60,704 nucleotides of DNA, taken from assembly GCF_000333595.1 (NCBI RefSeq), contig NZ_BADK01000137.1:1-60704 (forward strand). Direction: 5' to 3'. Each line of letters opens with the position of its first letter. Positions within the stretch are counted from its first letter, which is position 1. The notes under the pieces were generated by a model. That model did not search any database. It was not told where the DNA came from and saw only the letters and a list, made by a program, of their open reading frames with translations. This document shows, piece by piece, positions 34,992-52,623 of this stretch. The stretch is from Azospirillum sp. B506 (GTDB lineage Bacteria > Pseudomonadota > Alphaproteobacteria > Azospirillales > Azospirillaceae). Made by a program: the position numbers and the translations under genes.

Positions 34992-35636
34992 ACCGCCGCT
35001 GAACCGCCGATCCGTTCCAGTCCCGATTGCCGATATGCCAGCTATGGCACGCTGGATGCCTATGCCTGCGACGTGGTGGCGGTCCTCGACGCCCTCAGGG
35101 TCGGGAGTTGCGTCCGCGTCGGCCATTCCGTGGCGGGAATGGTGGCGGCGCTAGCCTCCATCCAGGCGCCCTCCCTGTTCCGCAAGCTGGTGATGTTGGG
35201 CGCGTCGGCCTGCTATCGCAATGTCGGCGACTATCGCGGCGGTTTCGACCCTGCCGACATCGACCGTCTGATCGACAGCGCTACCCACGACTACATGCAG
35301 TGGACGGCCAGCTTCGGCCAGACGGTTGTCTCCCGCCCGGCGCAGGATCCGACGGTGTGCGAGTTCGTTGCGACCTTGCGGGCGATGCGCCCGGACATGG
35401 CGCTGTCACTGCTGCTGACCATTCTGCACAGCGACGTCCGCAGCCGCCTTGCAGACGTCAAAGTCCCTGCCGTCATTCTGCAGACCCGGCAGGATGCCGC
35501 GGTGACGTGCAAAGCAGCGGAGTTCCTGCGAGACCATCTGACGGGCAGCGCCCTGGAGATCCTGGACGCGTCGGGGCATCTGCCCCACATGTCGGCGCCT
35601 GAAACGGCAATCGCCGCGCTCGACCGTTTCCTCTGA
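34992..35636 (+). pseudogene. RsbQ-like alpha/beta hydrolase lacking its N-terminus
   Basis: From about 35025 the frame reads CRYASYGTLDAYACDVV, then GHSVAGM (nucleophile serine), YNVGDYRGGFDPADI-like sequence, an acid in QTRQD and GHLPHMSAP with the catalytic histidine. This is the RsbQ/KAI2-type order, starting at the middle of the family alignment. Roughly the first 75 residues, including the HG oxyanion motif, are missing. No ATG or ribosome-binding site precedes the homology; the first usable start is GTG 35073. The homology begins right after the esterase TGA (34989-34991) in the same frame, as if a deletion fused the two regions. Probably non-functional as an enzyme. Confidence 0.75.
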
Positions 35637-36914: not shown

Positions 36915-39900
36915 ATGGAGCCCAATCTCGACCATCTGACGGAGGCCGGCTCCGGCACCCACGCACTGGGTGGCGACGGGGAAACCCGGCTGCTGCGGGT
37001 GACGCGGCCGGGGCAGCCCTTTCCGATCCTGGCCCGCATGGCCGAGCCGGCGGCCCCGGCCGACGGGGTTCTGGCTCGTTTGCGGCGCGAGCATGAACTG
37101 TTCCGCCTGCTCGATCCCGCCTGGGCGGTCAAGCCCCTCGACCTGTTGCGTCATGGCACCGTTCCGGTGCTGACCCTGGCCGATCCCGGCGGGCAGCCAT
37201 TGTCGGCGTTGGCAGCCTCCGCCCCTTACATGTCCACCGCTTCGGTTGTCGTCGGAACCTTCCGCCAGCGGCTTTCCCTGGCGTTCCGCATTGCCGGATC
37301 GGTGGCGCAGCTGCACCGCCGCGGGCTTCTGCATGGCGACCTGCGGCCCTTCAACCTGCTGGTCGGGGAGGATGGGGCGGTGCGCCTGACCGGATTCGGC
37401 CGTGCGACCGACCTGTCCGATCCGCAGCGCCAGGAGGTGGAGCGCCCGGCTGCACTGCTGCCCTATATGGCGCCGGAGCAGTCAGGACGGATGAACCGCC
37501 CGGTCGATCGGCGCAGCGACCTCTATGCCCTGGGCGTCACGCTGTACGAGCTGTTCACCAGGGAACTGCCCTTCGCCGCCCGCGATGCAACCGAATGGGT
37601 GCACAGCCATCTCGCCCGTGCCCCGATTCCGCCGTCGCAGCACGCGCCCGACCTGCCGCCGGCGATCTCCGGCATCCTGCTGCGGCTTCTCGCCAAGACG
37701 GCGGAGGAGCGCTACCAGACTGCCGGCGGCCTTGTCCGCGACCTCGGCCATGCCCTCCAGCTTTGGGACGGGCAGGGGCGCATCCCCGACTTTCCGCCCG
37801 GCCTGCACGACCTGCCGGAGGGGTTGGAGCCGCCGCCGAGGCTCTACGGGCGGGAGGAACCGGTCGCCGTCCTCCAGGCAGCCTTCGACCGGGTTGCCGG
37901 CCGCGGTCGGATGGGCGTCGTCCTCATTTCCGGCCGGTCGGGAGTGGGGAAGTCGGCGGTCGTCCACGCACTGGAGGAACAGCTGGTGCCGCCACGCGGC
38001 CTGTTCGCCGCCGGCAAGTTCGACCAGGGCCGGCGCGACCTGCCTTATGCCAGCCTTGCGGAAGCCTTCCGCGGGCTGGTCACGCGCATCCTGGCCTTGC
38101 CGGTTCCCCATCGCGACCAATGGTGCCGCGACCTGGGAAAGGCGGTGGGCGACGGCGGTGCGCTGATGACCGCGCTCATTCCCAATCTCTCCCTGTTGAT
38201 CGGCGAACAGCCGGCGGTCCCGCCGCTGCCACCGCAGGAGGCGCAGAACCGCTTCGACCTGCTGTTCCGCCGGGTGCTCCAGCTCTTCGCCCGTCCCGAT
38301 CACCCGCTGGTCCTGGTCCTCGACGATCTGCAATGGCTCGACCGCGCAACGCTGGATTTGCTGGACCGGCTGGTCGCCGACGGAAGCATCAACCACCTTC
38401 TGCTGGTCGGCGCCTACCGCAGCGACGAGGTGGGACCGGATCACCCGCTGACCGCCCTGCTGGACCGGATCAGGGACGCCACCTCCCGGTCCGGAGTCGC
38501 CGGTCTGGACATCGATTGCAGCGAGATCACCCTGGGTCCGCTGTCGTCCGACGACCTGCACCGGCTGGTCGCCGACAGCCTGGACCGCAGGCCGGAGGAG
38601 GTGGCGGCGCTGGCGGCATTGGTCGAAGACCGGACCGGCGGCAACGCCTTCTTCGCCGTGCAGCTTCTGACCGCGCTGGAGCGCTCCGGCCGGCTGTGGT
38701 TCGACCGCGCGGCCAGGCGCTGGGACTGGGATCCGGCGGCGGTGGAGACGGCACGGTCGGGTGCCAGCATCGCCTCGTTGATGACCGAACGTCTGGGCCG
38801 CTTTCCGGCGCGGGCACGCGATCTTCTGGCCCGCCTTGCCGCGTTGGGCGCCCGTGCTCCGCTCGCCACCCTGGCGCGGGCGGGCGGCCTGACCGAGGCG
38901 GAGACCGAGCGGAACCTGAAGCCGGTGCTGGCCGAGGGGCTGCTGCTGCGCGAGGGCGATGGTTTCCGCTTCCTTCACGACCGGGTGCAGGAGGGAGCCT
39001 ATGCCCTGGTTCCGGCGGAGGGACGGGCTGGTCTTCATCTCGACATCGCCCGCGCCCTGCACAGCGGCTTCGCCACCGAGCTGTCGGGCGAGCGGCTGTT
39101 CGCGCTGGTCGGCCAGTATGACCGTTGCCTTCCCTTGATCCAGGACGGGCGGGAGCGCGAGGAGGTGGCGACACTCCACCTCGCCGCCGGACATCAGGCC
39201 AAGGCGGCGAGCGCCCATGGCTCCGCGCTCGCCTATGCGCTGGCGGGCCTGCGCCTGCTGGAGGGCGGCCAATGGGAGCGCCGGCACCGGCTGGCCTTCG
39301 CGCTTGAGCATCTGCAGGCCGAATGCGAGTTCCTTAGCGGCGATCTGCGGCGGGCGGAGCTGAGGCTGCTCGGGTTGGTCGGGCGGGCCGAATGTCCGGC
39401 GGACCGGGCCGCCATCACCGCCCTTCTGGTCACCGTCTACACCGCCATCGACCGCAGCGACCGCGCCATCGACGCCTGTCTCGCCTATCTGCGCGGCGCC
39501 GGCATCGACTGGCCCGCCCACCCGCCTGCCTCCCTGGCGCAGGAGGAATATGCGCGGCTGCGCGCGGCCATCGGCGGCCGGCCGATCGCGTCGCTGGCGT
39601 CGTTGTCCGCCGTCGGCGATCCCGACAGCCGGGCGACGATGGACGTGCTGGCCGCAGCATTGCCGCCAGCCTTCTTCAGCGACCGCGACCTTGTCTGCCT
39701 GATCCTCTGCCGGATGGCTAATCTGACGCTGCAACATGGGCGCAGCGACGCCTCAGCGCTGGGCTTCGCCTATCTCGGCATGATGGCCGGGCCGTATTTC
39801 GGCGATTACGCCGCCGGCTACGCCTTCGGCAGGCTCGGCTACGATCTGGCGGAGCGGCAGGGGCGGACCCGTTACCGGGCGCGGGTGCTGATGACCTTCG

Positions 39901-41981
39901 CCTATCATGTCGTGCCCTGGACCCGCGATATCCGCAGCGAGCGCGCCCTGCTTCTGCGGGCGTTCGAGGAGGCGCGGGAGGCCGGCGACGTCACCTATGG
40001 CGGCTTCACCAGCGTGACTCTGGTCACCAGCATGCTGGCGTCGGGCGACCCGGTGACGACGGTGCAGCGCATCGCCGAGGCGCGGCTCGCCTATGTGCGG
40101 CAGGTGAAGTTCGGTCTGTGTGCCGACATCCTGACCACGCAATTGCAGCTGCTGCGCGCCTTGCAAGGACGGACCGACGCGCTCGACTCCTTCGACGGGC
40201 GCGGTTTCGACAATGCCGCCTTCGAGGCACGGCTGCTGGCCAACCCAAGCCTGGACATCGCCACATGCTGGCACTGGATCCGCACGCTTCAGCTCCGCTG
40301 CATCGCCGGCGGGATGCGTGCGGCGGTCGAGGCGGCCGAACGGGCAGAGGGGTTGCTGTGGACCACGTCGGGCCATTGGGAGATGGCGGAGTTCCATTTT
40401 CATGCGGCTCTGGCCAGGGCTGGAGCGATGGATGGAGCGGAGCCGGAGGAGCGCGCCCGCCACGCGATGATGCTCTCCCGCCATCTCGCCCAACTGCGCG
40501 AATGGGCCGGCCACAGCCCCGACAGCTTCGATGCCCGGTTCGCGCTGGTCACGGCCGAGGTGGCGCGCACGCAGGGGCAGACCGAGGATGCCATGCGCGG
40601 CTATGACCGCGCCGCGCAGGCTGCCCGCCGCACCGGCCTGCCGCATGTGGAGGCGCTGGCCCAGGAGTGCGCTGCCGGCTTCTACCGCCGGATGGGGCTG
40701 CCGACACTGGAATTCGCCTGCATCCGCGAAGCGGCGGAGCGTTACGGCGCCTGGGGGGCGTCGGCCAAGGTCCGGCAACTTGCCCGGCGCTATCCCTCCC
40801 TGCTTCTGGAGGCGGGCGAGGCGGCGGTCCCGGAGACGCCCCGCGGCTTCGACGGGATCGATCTGGCCGCTCTGCTGGAGACGCTGCGCACCGTCTCCGA
40901 CCAGTCGGGGGTGGAGCAGTTGACCACCACCCTGCTGACCCTGGTGCTGGAGCATGCGGGGGCCAGCCGCGGCCTGCTGATCCTCGCCCGCGGCGAGCGC
41001 CTGCGGGTGGAGGCGGAGGCGACGACCGGCCTCTACGGCGTGTCGGTCCGGCTGGTGCAGGAGGATGCCGACCGCTTCCCGCTGCCCCACGCCATCATCC
41101 ATGGCGCCATCCGCGACCAGGAGGCGGTGATCGTCGACGACACCCGTGCCGCCGGCCCGCTGTCCGCCGATCCCTATTTCCACGAGACGGAGGCGCGCTC
41201 CATCCTCTGCCTGCCGCTGGTCCGCCGCCGACGGGTCGTCGGTCTTCTGCATCTGGAGAATGCGCTGGCGACCTACGCCTTCACCCAGCAGCGGGTCAAT
41301 GTGCTGACCCTGCTCGGTGCCCAGGCCGCGGCATCGCTGGAGACGGCGACGCTGGAGGAGAAGGACGCGCTGTTGAAGGAAATCCACCACCGGGTTAAGA
41401 ACAACCTGCAGCTCGTCACCAGCCTGCTGAACCTCCAGTCCCGCCGGATCGAGGACGAGACAGTGGCCGCCCTGTTTGCCGACAGCCGCGACCGCGTGCG
41501 GTCGATGGCATTGGTTCATGAAAGCCTGTACCGTCTGGGCAACTTCGCCCGCGTGCCCATGCGCGAGCATCTGGAGTCGGTCTGTGCCCATTTGTTACGG
41601 GCCTATTCCCGCCAAGCCGGAGCGGTGCGGCTGGAAACAGGGCTGGACGACCTGAAGCTGGACCTCGACCGGGCAGTGCCCTGCGGGCTGATCGTCAACG
41701 AGCTGGTCTCCAACGCGCTGAAGCATGCCTATCCGGGCGGGCGCGGCGGCGTTTTGCACGTCGCCTTGACGATGGATGGCCAAGCCTGCCGGCTATCCGT
41801 CCGGGACGACGGCGTGGGCTTGCCCGACGGGTTCGATCCCGATAGGATGGAATCAGTCGGCTTCCAGCTTGTTTCGGACTTGACCAGTCAGTTGCACGGA
41901 AATCTGCAATACAGGTTCAACACAGGCTCGGAATTCATCGTCACCTTTCCTTTGAGGGGGCGCAATCGGGGAAGCGAATGA
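36915..41981 (+). CDS. Giant sensor: pseudokinase - AAA ATPase - TPR-like region - GAF - HisKA_2 histidine kinase
   Basis: A 1688-aa cytoplasmic signalling protein. Residues about 20-285 form a Ser/Thr-kinase-like domain with LLHGDLRPFNLLV (D142, N147) and YMAPEQSG. The DFG motif reads GFG (160-162), and the beta-3 lysine appears replaced by Arg (ILARM), so it looks catalytically dead. Residues about 309-600 form an AAA_16 ATPase with Walker A GRSGVGKS (340-347) and Walker B LVLVLDDLQWLD. A long helical TPR-like region follows, then a GAF domain (about 1325-1480). The C-terminal histidine kinase has IHHRVKNNLQ (H1491/H1492) and N-box NELVSNALKHAYP. ATG 36915 is the likely start. The stop overlaps the next gene as ATGA. 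Confidence 0.9.
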   Translation: MEPNLDHLTEAGSGTHALGGDGETRLLRVTRPGQPFPILARMAEPAAPADGVLARLRREHELFRLLDPAWAVKPLDLLRHGTVPVLTLADPGGQPLSALAASAPYMSTASVVVGTFRQRLSLAFRIAGSVAQLHRRGLLHGDLRPFNLLVGEDGAVRLTGFGRATDLSDPQRQEVERPAALLPYMAPEQSGRMNRPVDRRSDLYALGVTLYELFTRELPFAARDATEWVHSHLARAPIPPSQHAPDLPPAISGILLRLLAKTAEERYQTAGGLVRDLGHALQLWDGQGRIPDFPPGLHDLPEGLEPPPRLYGREEPVAVLQAAFDRVAGRGRMGVVLISGRSGVGKSAVVHALEEQLVPPRGLFAAGKFDQGRRDLPYASLAEAFRGLVTRILALPVPHRDQWCRDLGKAVGDGGALMTALIPNLSLLIGEQPAVPPLPPQEAQNRFDLLFRRVLQLFARPDHPLVLVLDDLQWLDRATLDLLDRLVADGSINHLLLVGAYRSDEVGPDHPLTALLDRIRDATSRSGVAGLDIDCSEITLGPLSSDDLHRLVADSLDRRPEEVAALAALVEDRTGGNAFFAVQLLTALERSGRLWFDRAARRWDWDPAAVETARSGASIASLMTERLGRFPARARDLLARLAALGARAPLATLARAGGLTEAETERNLKPVLAEGLLLREGDGFRFLHDRVQEGAYALVPAEGRAGLHLDIARALHSGFATELSGERLFALVGQYDRCLPLIQDGREREEVATLHLAAGHQAKAASAHGSALAYALAGLRLLEGGQWERRHRLAFALEHLQAECEFLSGDLRRAELRLLGLVGRAECPADRAAITALLVTVYTAIDRSDRAIDACLAYLRGAGIDWPAHPPASLAQEEYARLRAAIGGRPIASLASLSAVGDPDSRATMDVLAAALPPAFFSDRDLVCLILCRMANLTLQHGRSDASALGFAYLGMMAGPYFGDYAAGYAFGRLGYDLAERQGRTRYRARVLMTFAYHVVPWTRDIRSERALLLRAFEEAREAGDVTYGGFTSVTLVTSMLASGDPVTTVQRIAEARLAYVRQVKFGLCADILTTQLQLLRALQGRTDALDSFDGRGFDNAAFEARLLANPSLDIATCWHWIRTLQLRCIAGGMRAAVEAAERAEGLLWTTSGHWEMAEFHFHAALARAGAMDGAEPEERARHAMMLSRHLAQLREWAGHSPDSFDARFALVTAEVARTQGQTEDAMRGYDRAAQAARRTGLPHVEALAQECAAGFYRRMGLPTLEFACIREAAERYGAWGASAKVRQLARRYPSLLLEAGEAAVPETPRGFDGIDLAALLETLRTVSDQSGVEQLTTTLLTLVLEHAGASRGLLILARGERLRVEAEATTGLYGVSVRLVQEDADRFPLPHAIIHGAIRDQEAVIVDDTRAAGPLSADPYFHETEARSILCLPLVRRRRVVGLLHLENALATYAFTQQRVNVLTLLGAQAAASLETATLEEKDALLKEIHHRVKNNLQLVTSLLNLQSRRIEDETVAALFADSRDRVRSMALVHESLYRLGNFARVPMREHLESVCAHLLRAYSRQAGAVRLETGLDDLKLDLDRAVPCGLIVNELVSNALKHAYPGGRGGVLHVALTMDGQACRLSVRDDGVGLPDGFDPDRMESVGFQLVSDLTSQLHGNLQYRFNTGSEFIVTFPLRGRNRGSE

Positions 41982-43504
41982 TCGCGGCACGCATCCTGAT
42001 CGTCGAAGACGACCGCATCGTTGCACGCGACATTCAGCATCAACTGTCCCGTATGGGCCATGTGGTCGTCGGCATGTCGGCCAGCGGCGAGGAGGCCGTC
42101 CGGTTGGCCTGCAGCCAGCAGCCCGATCTGGTTCTGATGGACATCCGCCTGGAAGGAGAGATGGACGGGATCGAGGCGGCTCGCCGGATTCGCGATGCCC
42201 AACGCATTCCCATCGTCTTCCTGACCGCCTATGCCAATGACGAGGTGGTGCATCGCGCCAGCCTGACGGAGCCCTTCGGCTATCTGCTGAAGCCCTTTGA
42301 AGAGCCGCAGATGCGGACCGTGATCCAGATGGCGTTGTACAAGCATGCCAGCGACACCAGGCTCCGCCTCAGCGAGCGGCGCTATGCCGCCACCCTCGCC
42401 AGCATCCGCGACGGCGTCATCCTGTGCAACCGCGACGGCCGGGTCGATTTCATGAACAGGGCGGCGGAGACGATGACCGGCTGGACCGCGGCCGACGCTG
42501 CCGGGCAGCCGCTGTCTGCCGTTTTCGTCGTGGTGGACGAGGAAACAAGCAAGCCGCTGGAGGATTTCTCCGCCGTCGTCTTGCGCAGCGGCGACTTCGC
42601 CCCGCCGGAACGGCAGTCGCGGCTGCTGCCCCGTGGCGGGGGCGAGGCTGATGGGAACGCCACCGACGGACTCGTGGTGGAGGAGCGATGCTCCGCCATC
42701 ATCGACGACCGTGGCGATCCGGTGGGATCGATCCTCGTGTTTCGCGACCTTACCCAGCGTCGCCGGATTGCGGAGGCCCTGCGGACGGCCCAGGCCGACC
42801 TTGCCCATATCGGCCGGCTGACCATGATGGGCGAATTGGCCGCGGCGGTCGCGCATGAGGTGAATCAGCCGCTGATGGCGATCGTCACCAATGCCGGCAC
42901 CTGCCTGCAGCATCTGTCGCAACCGCAGCCCGACCTCGAAAAGACCCGGGTGGTGGTGGAGCGGATCGTGCGTGACGCCCAGCGCGCCGGCGATGTCGTG
43001 CGCAGCATCCGCGCGCTGGCCCGCCGCACCCCGGCCGATCCGGGCTGGGTCGACATCAGCGCGCTGATCGCCGAGACGCTGGAACTGGTGCGGGCGGAGC
43101 TGCGGCGGGCCCGCATCACGGTGGAAACCGACCTGCAGGCCGGCCCGCCCTGGGTCCATGGCGACCGTGTGCAGTTGCAGCAGCTCGTCCTGAATCTGGT
43201 GATGAACGCCATCGAGGCGATATCGGCCGCCGACCGGTCCGAACGGCTGCTGCGGATCGTCACCGGCAGCGGCGACGGCTGGATCCGCGTCCGGGTCGAG
43301 GACAGCGGGCCGGGCATCGCCGAAGCGGATGTCGACAGCATCTTCCGCGCCTTGTACACCACCAAGCCGGACGGGTTGGGCATGGGCCTGTCGATCAGCC
43401 GGTCGATTGTCGAGCTGCATGGCGGGCGATTGACCGCCACGCCCGGCATCTCCGGTGGCAGCGTGTTCGAATTCATGATGCCCGTATCGCCCGGAGGACA
43501 GTGA
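41978..43504 (+). CDS. Receiver-PAS-histidine kinase (hybrid with N-terminal REC)
   Basis: A 508-aa protein. An N-terminal receiver (D11/D12, phosphoacceptor D55, K in YLLKPFEEP) is followed by a PAS domain (about 130-260; DGVILCNRDGRVDFMNRAAETMTGW) and then a HisKA dimerisation helix with H293 (AHEVNQPLMAIVTNAG) and HATPase_c (NLVMNAIEAI, DSGPGIAEADVD, GLGMGLSISRSIVELHGG). Its ATG overlaps the stop of the giant sensor, so the receiver probably takes phosphate from that kinase. Its own kinase, of the FixL/DctB class, then feeds the FixJ-like regulator encoded next. This is an inferred phosphorelay. Confidence 0.92.
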   Translation: MIAARILIVEDDRIVARDIQHQLSRMGHVVVGMSASGEEAVRLACSQQPDLVLMDIRLEGEMDGIEAARRIRDAQRIPIVFLTAYANDEVVHRASLTEPFGYLLKPFEEPQMRTVIQMALYKHASDTRLRLSERRYAATLASIRDGVILCNRDGRVDFMNRAAETMTGWTAADAAGQPLSAVFVVVDEETSKPLEDFSAVVLRSGDFAPPERQSRLLPRGGGEADGNATDGLVVEERCSAIIDDRGDPVGSILVFRDLTQRRRIAEALRTAQADLAHIGRLTMMGELAAAVAHEVNQPLMAIVTNAGTCLQHLSQPQPDLEKTRVVVERIVRDAQRAGDVVRSIRALARRTPADPGWVDISALIAETLELVRAELRRARITVETDLQAGPPWVHGDRVQLQQLVLNLVMNAIEAISAADRSERLLRIVTGSGDGWIRVRVEDSGPGIAEADVDSIFRALYTTKPDGLGMGLSISRSIVELHGGRLTATPGISGGSVFEFMMPVSPGGQ

Positions 43505-44154
43505 TGGTGAGGAATGCCGAAGCCATGCCGGCGGAGGAGACCGTCATCATCATCGACGATGACGAAGCCGTCCGGGAAGCGCTGGAAGGGCTGCTTGATT
43601 CCGTCGGGCTGCAGGTGAGGAGCTACGGCTCGGTGCAGCAATATGTCGAGCAGCGGCCAGCCATCGACGTCGGCTGCATGGTGCTGGACGTGCGGCTGCC
43701 GGGGCGCAGCGGCCTGGATTTCCAGGCGGAGCTCGCTCAGTCCGGCAACAGCCTGCCGGTGATCTTCATCAGCGGGCATGCCGACGTGCCGATGTCGGTG
43801 CGTGCGATGAAGGCGGGGGCCTTCGAATTCCTGACGAAGCCTGTGCATCACCAGGAACTGCTCGACGCGATCCATGCCGCCATCGCCGCCCATGGCGTGC
43901 GGCGCAGCCAGGAACGCGGCCTGACCACCCAGCGCGCCCGTTTCGAGACCCTGACCGCGCGCGAGCGCGAGATCACGATGATGGTGGTCCTCGGCCTGCG
44001 CAACAAACAGATCGCTGACGACCTCGGCCTTAGCGAAGCGACGGTCAAGCTGCATCGCGGTCAGGCCATGCGCAAGATGGAGGCCCGGTCCGTCGTCGAA
44101 CTGGTGCGCATCGTTGACAGCCTGACCGGAATCGGCGCTGGCCGGACCCAATAG
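43504..44154 (+). CDS. FixJ/NarL-type response regulator
   Basis: A 216-aa DNA-binding response regulator with receiver acidic pocket D18-D20, phosphoacceptor D62 (VLDVRLPGRSG), conserved T/S and K (FLTKPVH) and a C-terminal LuxR-type HTH (LTAREREITMMVVLGLRNKQIADDLGLSEATVKLHRG). ATG 43504 shares a base with the preceding TGA (TGATG) and follows GGAGGA. It is the output of the three-gene signalling operon. Target promoters are unknown; the palindrome at 35689-35706 is a candidate. Confidence 0.93.
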   Translation: MVRNAEAMPAEETVIIIDDDEAVREALEGLLDSVGLQVRSYGSVQQYVEQRPAIDVGCMVLDVRLPGRSGLDFQAELAQSGNSLPVIFISGHADVPMSVRAMKAGAFEFLTKPVHHQELLDAIHAAIAAHGVRRSQERGLTTQRARFETLTAREREITMMVVLGLRNKQIADDLGLSEATVKLHRGQAMRKMEARSVVELVRIVDSLTGIGAGRTQ

Positions 44155-50907: not shown

Positions 50908-50967
50908 AACCCGCGGCGTTGCCTGGGCAGAGTGGTCATAACACTTTCGATCCGAAGGAAGATTGCC

Positions 50968-52623
50968 GTGAACACCCTGGGACGGACCGTCGCGCTCGCC
51001 CTGTCGCTTTTCGTCTGGATGGCCGGCCCGGGCGAGGCCGCGGCGGAAAAGCGTGTGGCGCTGGTGTTGGGCAACAGCACCTACCAGTACGCGCCACGGC
51101 TGCCCAACCCCACCAACGATGCCAAGGCGATGGCGGATTCCCTGCGCGCCGCCGGGTTCGAGCTGATCGGAGGAGCCCCGCAGCTGGATCTGGACCGCGC
51201 GGCCACCGAACGGGTAATCCGCAGCTTCGGCGCCAAGCTGGCGGGGGCCGATGTCGGGCTGTTCTTCTATGCCGGGCATGGCATGCAGGCCCGGGGCACC
51301 AATTATCTGCTGCCGGTTTCCGCCAATCTGGAGAAGGAGGCCGATGTCCGGTACGAGCTGATCGATGTCGCCAGTGTGCTGGACGAGATGGCGCTGGCGG
51401 AAAGCCGGCTGAACATCGTCATCCTCGACGCCTGCCGCAACAATCCGTTCGGTGGGCGCGGGATGCGCGCGGCCTCTCCCGGTCTGGCGCAGATGCAGGC
51501 GCCGGCTGGTACCATCATCGCCTATGCGACCCAGCCGGGCGCGGTGGCGGCCGATGGCGCCGGTTCCAACAGCCCCTATACCGAAGCGCTGTCGAAGGCC
51601 ATGCTGAAGCCGGGCGAAACGGTGTTCGATGTCTTCAACGATGTCGGCATCGCGGTGAAGCGCAATTCCGGCGGTGTCCAGCAGCCCTGGGTGTCGGCCT
51701 CTCCCATCGAGGGGCGCTTCTATTTCCTGGGTCCGACCACGGTGGTGACGACGCCCCCGGCCGACGCGGCGACCGCTGCGGGTGCCGGTGCCGACAAGGA
51801 GACGCTGTTCTGGGACAGCATCAAGGGCAGTTCCAACCGTGGCCTGTTCGAGGCTTATCTGAAGCAGTTCCCGCAGGGCACCTTCACCCCCATCGCCGAG
51901 GCGCGGATCGCCGAACTGGGCGGGGCGGCGCCTTCGGAGCGGGCGCCCGTTTCGGTCGCGGCCCTTGCCGTTCCGCCGGTCCCGGCTCCGGCCCCGGTTC
52001 CAAAGCCGATCCCGGCCCCCGGCGCGACCCCGGCACCGGCCGCTCCGCCGGCCCGGCCGCTGACTGTGTCGGCCATCCCCTATCTCAACGCCAAGGCTCG
52101 CGAGGCGCTGGCGATCTATCCGGGATTGCCGTCGCCCAAGGCGCTGGCGATCTCGGCCAAGGGCAACTACGCCTATTTCTCCAACAAGTCGAACAGCCGG
52201 ACCGAGGACGACGTCAAGCGCAGTGCCCTGCAATATTGCCAGTACCGTGCGGAAGAACCCTGCACCCTCTATGCGGTGGGCGACGAGGTGGTGATGCCCC
52301 CCAAAGGGTTCGTGCCGATGCCGGTCGAGATTGTCGGGAGCGGCCGCTTCGATCCGGCGAGCGTACCCTTCGTCAGCGACCACACCCGCAAGGTCGGCAT
52401 GGTGAACTACCAGCGCAATCCCGGCCACAAGGCGCTGGCCGTGACCCTGGCCGGCCGCTGGGCCACAGTCTGGGATCGCGACAGCGAGGAGGAGGCGAAG
52501 ACGGCGGCGCTGGAGCGGTGCGGACAATCCGGCGGCAGCCAGGAGTGCATGCTCTACGCCGTCGGAGACCGGATCGTCTTCGAGGAGGTTCCGGACGAGG
52601 AGGAAGACGAGGAGGAGGAGTGA
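50968..52623 (+). CDS. Secreted caspase-family (C14) protein with Pro-rich linker and duplicated C-terminal cassette
   Basis: A 551-aa exported protein. A signal peptide (about 1-26, ending GEAAA) precedes a p20 caspase-like domain with catalytic H104 (YAGHGMQ) and C156 (LDACRNNPF). A Pro/Ala-rich linker covers about residues 335-365. Two related cassettes follow (about 392-443 and 489-540), each with two cysteines and ending in LYAVGD. The tail is strongly acidic (DEEEDEEEE). GTG 50968 follows AAGGAAG by about 6 bases; the frame opens upstream without a better site. It is probably a periplasmic metacaspase-like protease; its targets and the cassette function are unknown. Confidence 0.87.
   Translation: MNTLGRTVALALSLFVWMAGPGEAAAEKRVALVLGNSTYQYAPRLPNPTNDAKAMADSLRAAGFELIGGAPQLDLDRAATERVIRSFGAKLAGADVGLFFYAGHGMQARGTNYLLPVSANLEKEADVRYELIDVASVLDEMALAESRLNIVILDACRNNPFGGRGMRAASPGLAQMQAPAGTIIAYATQPGAVAADGAGSNSPYTEALSKAMLKPGETVFDVFNDVGIAVKRNSGGVQQPWVSASPIEGRFYFLGPTTVVTTPPADAATAAGAGADKETLFWDSIKGSSNRGLFEAYLKQFPQGTFTPIAEARIAELGGAAPSERAPVSVAALAVPPVPAPAPVPKPIPAPGATPAPAAPPARPLTVSAIPYLNAKAREALAIYPGLPSPKALAISAKGNYAYFSNKSNSRTEDDVKRSALQYCQYRAEEPCTLYAVGDEVVMPPKGFVPMPVEIVGSGRFDPASVPFVSDHTRKVGMVNYQRNPGHKALAVTLAGRWATVWDRDSEEEAKTAALERCGQSGGSQECMLYAVGDRIVFEEVPDEEEDEEEE

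Follow-up and report, generated by a model that had tools for sequence, protein, structure and literature searches.

How would a signal travel through three overlapping genes that together encode two histidine kinases (HKs), two receivers, and, at the very front, a protein kinase fold whose catalytic motifs look degraded? This question is raised by a locus of the soil bacterium Azospirillum sp. B506 (assembly GCF_000333595.1, contig NZ_BADK01000137.1), which we analyzed within a stretch of 60,704 nucleotides, henceforth termed the window. An earlier reading of the letters alone (the sequence-only reading) had proposed that the three genes at positions 36915 to 44154, here called genes 1 to 3 or the trio, form a phosphorelay with two kinases in series and a pseudokinase as its binding or allosteric module. 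By comparison with characterized sensors, with paralogues in the same genome, and with relatives in other genera, we arrive at a similar but more specific picture: the trio probably encodes a cytosolic three-gene phosphorelay with two kinases in series and a pseudokinase-ATPase-GAF front end, corresponding to a StyS/TodS-type sensor that is split between its first kinase (HK1) and its receiver (Rec). We assign this reading a probability of about 0.66.

Results

Domain architecture and proposed relay order

The features of the locus, in window coordinates and with protein lengths in amino acids (aa), are as follows.

36915..41981, + strand: gene 1, 1688 aa; pseudokinase, AAA_16 ATPase, about 800 aa, GAF, HisKA_2, HATPase
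36915..37784, + strand: pseudokinase domain, residues ~1-290, with R41 at the beta-3 Lys position, H140-G-D142, and G160-F-G at the DFG position; Pfam Pkinase on the C-lobe only, N-lobe placed via alignment with DFG-intact relatives and a low-confidence kinase-fold model
37839..38408, + strand: AAA_16 ATPase domain of gene 1, residues 309-498, intact Walker A/B (Pfam, 125.1 bits)
40908..41342, + strand: GAF domain of gene 1, residues 1332-1476 (about; Pfam)
41379..41957, + strand: HisKA_2 and HATPase of gene 1, residues 1489-1681 (HisKA_2 1489-1564, 92.8 bits; HATPase 1592-1681)
41978..43504, + strand: gene 2, 508 aa; Rec-PAS-HisKA-HATPase, counterpart of the StyS C-terminal half
41993..42325, + strand: receiver domain of gene 2, residues 6-116 (Pfam Response_reg)
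43501..44154, + strand: gene 3, 217 aa; FixJ/StyR-like response regulator, Rec-GerE (Pfam and StyR homology)

These coordinates and domain assignments bear out what had been read from the letters. Genes 1 and 2 share a four-nucleotide ATGA overlap, and gene 3 starts either with GTG at 43501 or with ATG at 43504, the latter giving a TGATG overlap on gene 2. The intact AAA ATPase, which Pfam places in AAA_16 and which we take to be STAND-like, is followed in gene 1 by a GAF domain and a HisKA_2 kinase, with the ~800 residues between AAA_16 and GAF showing no Pfam match. HisKA_2 lies well above the PF07568 gathering score (92.8 vs 22.3 bits), and its H box reads HHRVKNN in all 25 copies considered here, i.e., the window and 24 Azospirillum orthologs. 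Gene 2 begins with a receiver (Response_reg 6-116) and, behind PAS (135-263), ends with a kinase of its own (HisKA 284-350, HATPase 395-503); gene 3 combines Response_reg (15-124) with GerE (150-204), as expected for the FixJ-like regulator that had been proposed. Hydropathy analysis revealed no transmembrane-like segment in any of the three proteins, while a neighboring MCP chemoreceptor, used as positive control, has one.

The order of the relay is suggested by StyS, the styrene sensor of Pseudomonas putida S12, in which PAS-HisKA-HATPase-Rec-PAS-HisKA-HATPase follow each other in one chain. Residues 5-507 of gene 2 align to StyS residues 445-973 (33%, E 2e-68), the gene 2 kinase is 45% identical to the second StyS kinase (HK2) vs 28% to HK1, and gene 3 shares 44% identity with StyR over 200 aa. 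A literal FixL/FixJ system was rejected: the FixL and FixJ models score 199 and 190.3 bits, with NCBIfam curated values of 850 and 255, which marks the trio proteins as relatives and not as equivalogs.

Probable wiring of the HisKA_2 kinase

If gene 2 represents the C-terminal half of a StyS-like sensor, the HisKA_2 kinase of gene 1 would be expected in the place of HK1. In the window genome, the best non-self match to this HisKA_2 kinase (47%, contig C986) adjoins the best non-self match to the gene 2 receiver (about 47-48%, also on C986). The two matches are a PAS-HisKA_2 kinase and a Rec-PAS-PAS protein behind it, likely a cognate pair. Receivers located directly behind HisKA_2 kinases occupy ranks 1, 4, and 8 among the 25 non-self receiver matches in this genome. 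Outside Azospirillum, the trio is intact in Paroceanicella (HisKA_2 64%, receiver 78% identical), and in Paraburkholderia a HisKA_2 sensor (57%) is directly followed by a receiver-first kinase with a different output part and a receiver 66% identical to that of gene 2; the HisKA_2-receiver pair stays together in three genera. Two kinases in series, as the sequence-only reading had it, is a prediction that we find well supported on purely comparative grounds, namely the StyS/StyR homology, the pair in three genera, the neighboring paralogues, and the one-piece relatives described below.

In the predicted relay, the N-terminal kinase fold of gene 1, dead or nearly so, would serve the AAA_16 ATPase as a module that binds a ligand, a nucleotide, or a partner, and the state of ATPase and GAF would set the activity of the HisKA_2 kinase. 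This kinase would autophosphorylate and, as the co-inheritance of the two domains suggests, pass its phosphate to the N-terminal receiver of gene 2. Judging from the homologous systems, the phosphorylated receiver would switch the FixL/StyS-type kinase of gene 2, leading to phosphorylation of the FixJ/StyR-like gene 3 protein, which would then regulate transcription.

The same domains could also be wired in branches, with genes 1 and 2 acting as independent kinases on gene 3, or with HisKA_2 acting on stand-alone receivers elsewhere, while the gene 2 receiver serves as an internal phosphate sink. Such wiring would suit the complete kinase that gene 2 possesses and the additional gene for a lone receiver that immediately precedes gene 1 in A. 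lipoferum 4B, as well as 7 of 10 fetched HisKA_2 loci of the window genome that have no gene-2-like receiver nearby, which suggests that HisKA_2 kinases here have varied partners. The gene 2 receiver, however, is far nearer the C986 receiver behind a HisKA_2 kinase (about 47-48%) than the receiver of gene 3 (24%), and none of the 26 fetched loci in which a gene-2-like kinase forms part of a one-piece sensor has a gene-2-type receiver (at least 60 bits) nearby. We consider branched wiring unlikely.

Two loci deserve separate mention. On C986 (L161, 4713-8345), the PAS-HisKA_2 kinase and the Rec-PAS-PAS protein are accompanied by an open reading frame in another frame that resembles GGDEF-EAL by eye, and the reading frames possibly represent one long protein broken by a frameshift. 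In A. lipoferum 4B, the stand-alone receiver gene (L195, 11587-11961) lies 39 bases upstream of gene 1; the HisKA_2 kinase may have a further partner in its product.

The trio across Azospirillum

A full-length copy of gene 1 is found in 24 of 44 other genomes of the genus at 65-91% identity, with orthologs in 11 named Azospirillum assemblies. All 24 ortholog loci carry the whole trio and the 4-nucleotide overlap of genes 1 and 2; at one of them (L058), gene 3 is complete only as far as the receiver because undetermined bases come after it. All 25 copies have the same Walker A/B residues, the same His and Asp phospho-acceptors, and the same key HATPase residues. The acceptors are H293 and D55 in gene 2, D63 in gene 3 (numbered from GTG), and presumably H1492 in gene 1, the histidine of the H box that adjoins Arg. 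Conservation within gene 1 is highest in GAF (median identity 0.89); across the entire trio, the gene 2 receiver ranks first (0.93).

Comparison of the flanks across Azospirillum species yielded no stable neighboring gene, so no target could be named from synteny. The trio is flanked by AraC and esterase genes in the window and in B510; A. lipoferum 4B has siderophore/TonB/FecR genes at this place, and A. brasilense and TSH58 have an FAD oxidoreductase and an alpha/beta hydrolase. Since these flanks vary by species, the trio appears to be self-contained and to act on targets located elsewhere.

The pseudokinase at the front of gene 1

The Pfam Pkinase match in gene 1 spans residues 122-267 only (67.6 bits; cut-off 31.7). 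Within the domain, the beta-3 Lys is replaced by Arg41, DFG by G160-F161-G162, and HRD by H140-G141-D142, with the catalytic Asp142 and Asn147 retained in 25/25 copies. Alignment with paralogues or relatives that keep Lys and DFG (L033-L037) confirms the reported GFG and the loss of the beta-3 lysine. Arg at beta-3, GFG, and the HRD Asp are invariant in all 25 copies, while HGD becomes HRD in the seven most distant ones (L026-L032). We could thus discard a sequencing slip or other one-off artefact, as the same motifs recur in every copy, as well as an active dual Ser/Thr-His kinase, since the domain lacks the beta-3 Lys and the DFG Asp of active Ser/Thr kinases. Free decay of the domain is likewise unsupported: GFG and R41 are invariant, and the ratio of nonsynonymous to synonymous substitution rates (dN/dS) among six near orthologs, ~0.12 for the N-lobe and ~0.23 for the C-lobe (0.07-0.18 for the other gene 1 domains), is well below 1 and denotes purifying selection. 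In view of this selection, a binding or allosteric role as proposed earlier appears plausible. Structural support is weak: an AlphaFold model of residues 1-310 built from 11 sequences was poor (mean pLDDT 48.4), with protein kinases ranking top in a VIA-align comparison of this model (Z ~11, most rows across both lobes).

The term pseudokinase fits the motif loss across the whole clade, while the preserved HRD Asp would be compatible with residual or unusual activity. One version of this idea is that the domain is no pure pseudokinase and keeps an unusual catalysis, e.g., AMP or phosphate transfer via the HRD Asp. The retention of this Asp together with Asn147 in all 25 copies speaks for such catalysis, and the same pattern, with degraded ATP-binding and DFG motifs and a kept HRD Asp, characterizes the DLHK family in the available text of PMC12599244. 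With both the beta-3 Lys and the metal-binding Asp gone, and with the HRD Asp also lost in some other DFG-less members (L063, L077, L118, L119, L120, L126), we regard it as very unlikely.

One-piece relatives and a probable origin of the relay

To place the pseudokinase among its relatives, we computed a tree of the kinase-AAA region from 75 rows, comprising 12 of the 25 Azospirillum orthologs and 63 others (near-duplicates L034, L036, L062, and L069 left out). It is a quick, midpoint-rooted tree that has SH-aLRT values as its sole support measure and contains several long branches. One branch (SH-aLRT 98) divides the rows into a group of 29, with the DFG Asp present in 25, and a group of 46 in which it is always absent. 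The DFG-less side unites Azospirillum, Paroceanicella, Rhizobium, Microvirga, Bradyrhizobium, Paraburkholderia, and other genomes of the same phylum. On this evidence the pseudokinase is a member of a widespread clade and no local peculiarity. Two relatives, L084 and L086, bear the annotation 'trifunctional serine/threonine-protein kinase/ATP-binding protein/sensor histidine kinase', although neither has the beta-3 Lys or the DFG Asp at the aligned positions.

A census of 67 rows, which excludes the Azospirillum orthologs, partial rows (L078, L092, L103, L106, L121, L127), and repeat places (L076, L081, L114, L123, L128), linked this motif loss to the kinase that follows. A gene-2-like C-terminal HK (at least 150 bits) occurs in 29 of 38 DFG-less members vs none of the 29 DFG-intact ones. 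In the fetched stretches, a gene-3-like regulator (at least 100 bits) accompanies 18 of 26 loci with a gene-2-like HK vs 0 of 12 family loci without. The gene-2-like receiver (at least 60 bits), by comparison, is found at none of these 38 scanned loci vs both HisKA_2 loci outside Azospirillum. The one-piece sensors of rhizobia and others share the LTGFG pseudokinase, AAA_16, and GAF with gene 1, and most carry a C-terminal HK 40-48% identical to that of gene 2; they differ in forming one continuous protein, in which PAS-HisKA stands where gene 1 has HisKA_2 (L082).

These distributions suggest an origin for the relay. A HisKA_2-HATPase/receiver pair would have entered a rhizobial-type sensor made in one piece (pseudokinase-AAA-GAF-PAS-HK, with a FixJ-like partner) at the GAF|PAS boundary, and the trio of Azospirillum and Paroceanicella probably arose by that insertion, whose direction and number we infer. 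A broader generalization, on which we are almost evenly divided, is that HisKA_2 plus receiver constitutes a portable cassette of two parts, and that its splicing into a one-piece sensor turned a two-component system into a three-protein relay, within a clade that gave up Ser/Thr catalysis and kept the dead kinase as a conserved input module.

Several points weigh against the serial relay and this account of its origin. The gene 2 receiver could obtain phosphate from gene 2's own kinase, and, in addition to the HisKA_2 loci without such a receiver mentioned above, the receivers at ranks 2 and 3 (C81, and C455 at a contig end) have no HisKA_2 kinase in the fetched DNA. The pseudokinase retains its HRD Asp, and no other part of gene 1 is as poorly conserved (median identity 0.74 and 0.77); within the trio, dN/dS peaks in the pseudokinase C-lobe. 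Ten census rows were retrieved with a query that itself contained the gene-2-like HK (21/28 vs 0/29 without them), and several rows are near-duplicates. The association of DFG loss with this HK amounts to essentially one clade-level event, for which an independent-pairs test had no informative pair, and the LTGFG members L111, L116, and L124 have other HKs. No gene-3-like regulator appears in the fetched stretch at 8 of the 26 loci with a gene-2-like HK, and 11 of the 12 loci without this HK come from Azospirillum or its family, so that the compared groups differ in taxonomy. Lastly, the Paraburkholderia HisKA_2 sensor falls away from the trio clade with moderate support (SH-aLRT 82-89), and the cassette may therefore have been gained twice, exchanged, or moved more than once.

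Further members of the clade show additional arrangements. Some Azospirillum genomes encode a second pseudokinase-AAA-GAF sensor (L063, L077) with LTGFQ or LTGFE and with HGA for HRD, the catalytic Asp being lost as well; the gene-2-like HK is attached directly, and a gene-3-like regulator lies nearby. In L181, a single contig carries two tandem pseudokinase sensors, preceded by a third gene-2-like HK. L116 combines GFG with a Lys that continues to align to the beta-3 position (LLKT); it may be an intermediate, which would suggest loss of the DFG Asp before the Lys.

Neighboring genes

An Rfam scan of 30-50 kb of the window returned nothing reaching the gathering score. Upstream of the trio, an alpha/beta-hydrolase gene (35073-35636, + strand), presumably RsbQ-like, has BioH as its best NCBIfam match, far below cut-off. 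It lacks about the first 70 residues of the Azospirillum melinis copy (L039, before 5183), and the gap to the upstream esterase is ~330 bases shorter than in A. melinis; from the missing start and the shorter spacing, the gene looks truncated by deletion. Downstream, a caspase-domain (Peptidase_C14) protein of 563 aa is encoded at 50932-52623 (+ strand), and the annotation of Azospirillum sp. B510 likewise places a caspase family protein on the downstream side of the trio.

Discussion

The one-piece and relay forms of the same sensor provide a clean comparative pair for measuring the effect of an added phosphorelay step. This pair mirrors a published deletion in TodS, for which the available text of PMC4861429 reports that the HK1 His, the Rec Asp, and the HK2 His are all needed for signaling to TodT, while a minimal version (Min-TodS) without HK1-Rec-PAS2 still discriminates agonists from antagonists. 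The clade further ties a broad group of bacterial pseudokinases to defined histidine-kinase outputs, and at least two such proteins carry an automatic Ser/Thr kinase annotation despite missing key residues. No paper was found under the trifunctional annotation name, and no title on the trio system appeared among the matches listed for COG3899 with kinase terms or Azospirillum with domain terms, which is no proof of absence from print. A survey of Azospirillum two-component systems (PMC4618731) counts, in its available part, a single classic histidine kinase with S_TKc for A. lipoferum 4B and likewise one for B510; gene 1 may be among them.

Among known systems, the cyanobacterial HstK-type Ser/Thr and His kinases, as far as described in the available sources, resemble gene 1 in combining an N-terminal Ser/Thr kinase fold, GAF, and a C-terminal histidine kinase; in gene 1, by contrast, the Ser/Thr kinase signature is lost. 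Closer is the CP1 family of bacterial Ser/Thr (pseudo)kinases (O'Boyle et al. 2025, PMC12599244). According to the available text, about 40% of its members are pseudokinases, all of which are linked to a COG3899 predicted ATPase, often with FhlA/GAF or PAS and without a transmembrane region, and such bacterial pseudokinases are largely unexplored by experiment. Gene 1 shares the degraded catalytic motifs (K to R41 and D to G160, 25/25), the GAF domain, and the absence of a transmembrane region by hydropathy; its fused ATPase, placed by Pfam in AAA_16 (125.1 bits at 309-498), is a candidate counterpart of the COG3899 ATPase. As CP1 is in print, the pseudokinase-ATPase module therefore appears to be of a known kind; the accessible portions of that description contain no HisKA_2/receiver wiring or three-gene relay.

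StyS/StyR and TodS/TodT, in turn, have the order HK1, Rec, PAS, HK2, LuxR-type regulator in common with the trio. They differ in that HK1-Rec-PAS-HK2 forms one polypeptide in StyS and TodS, whereas it is divided between genes 1 and 2 here; in that HK1 is of the HisKA type in StyS and of the HisKA_2 type in the trio; and in that PAS takes the place of the pseudokinase-AAA-GAF front end. StyS/StyR also adjoin styrene genes, while the trio has no stable neighboring target. Taken by its sequence, the trio looks like a variant that joins a CP1-type pseudokinase sensor to a TodS-like relay, and not like a new kind of system.

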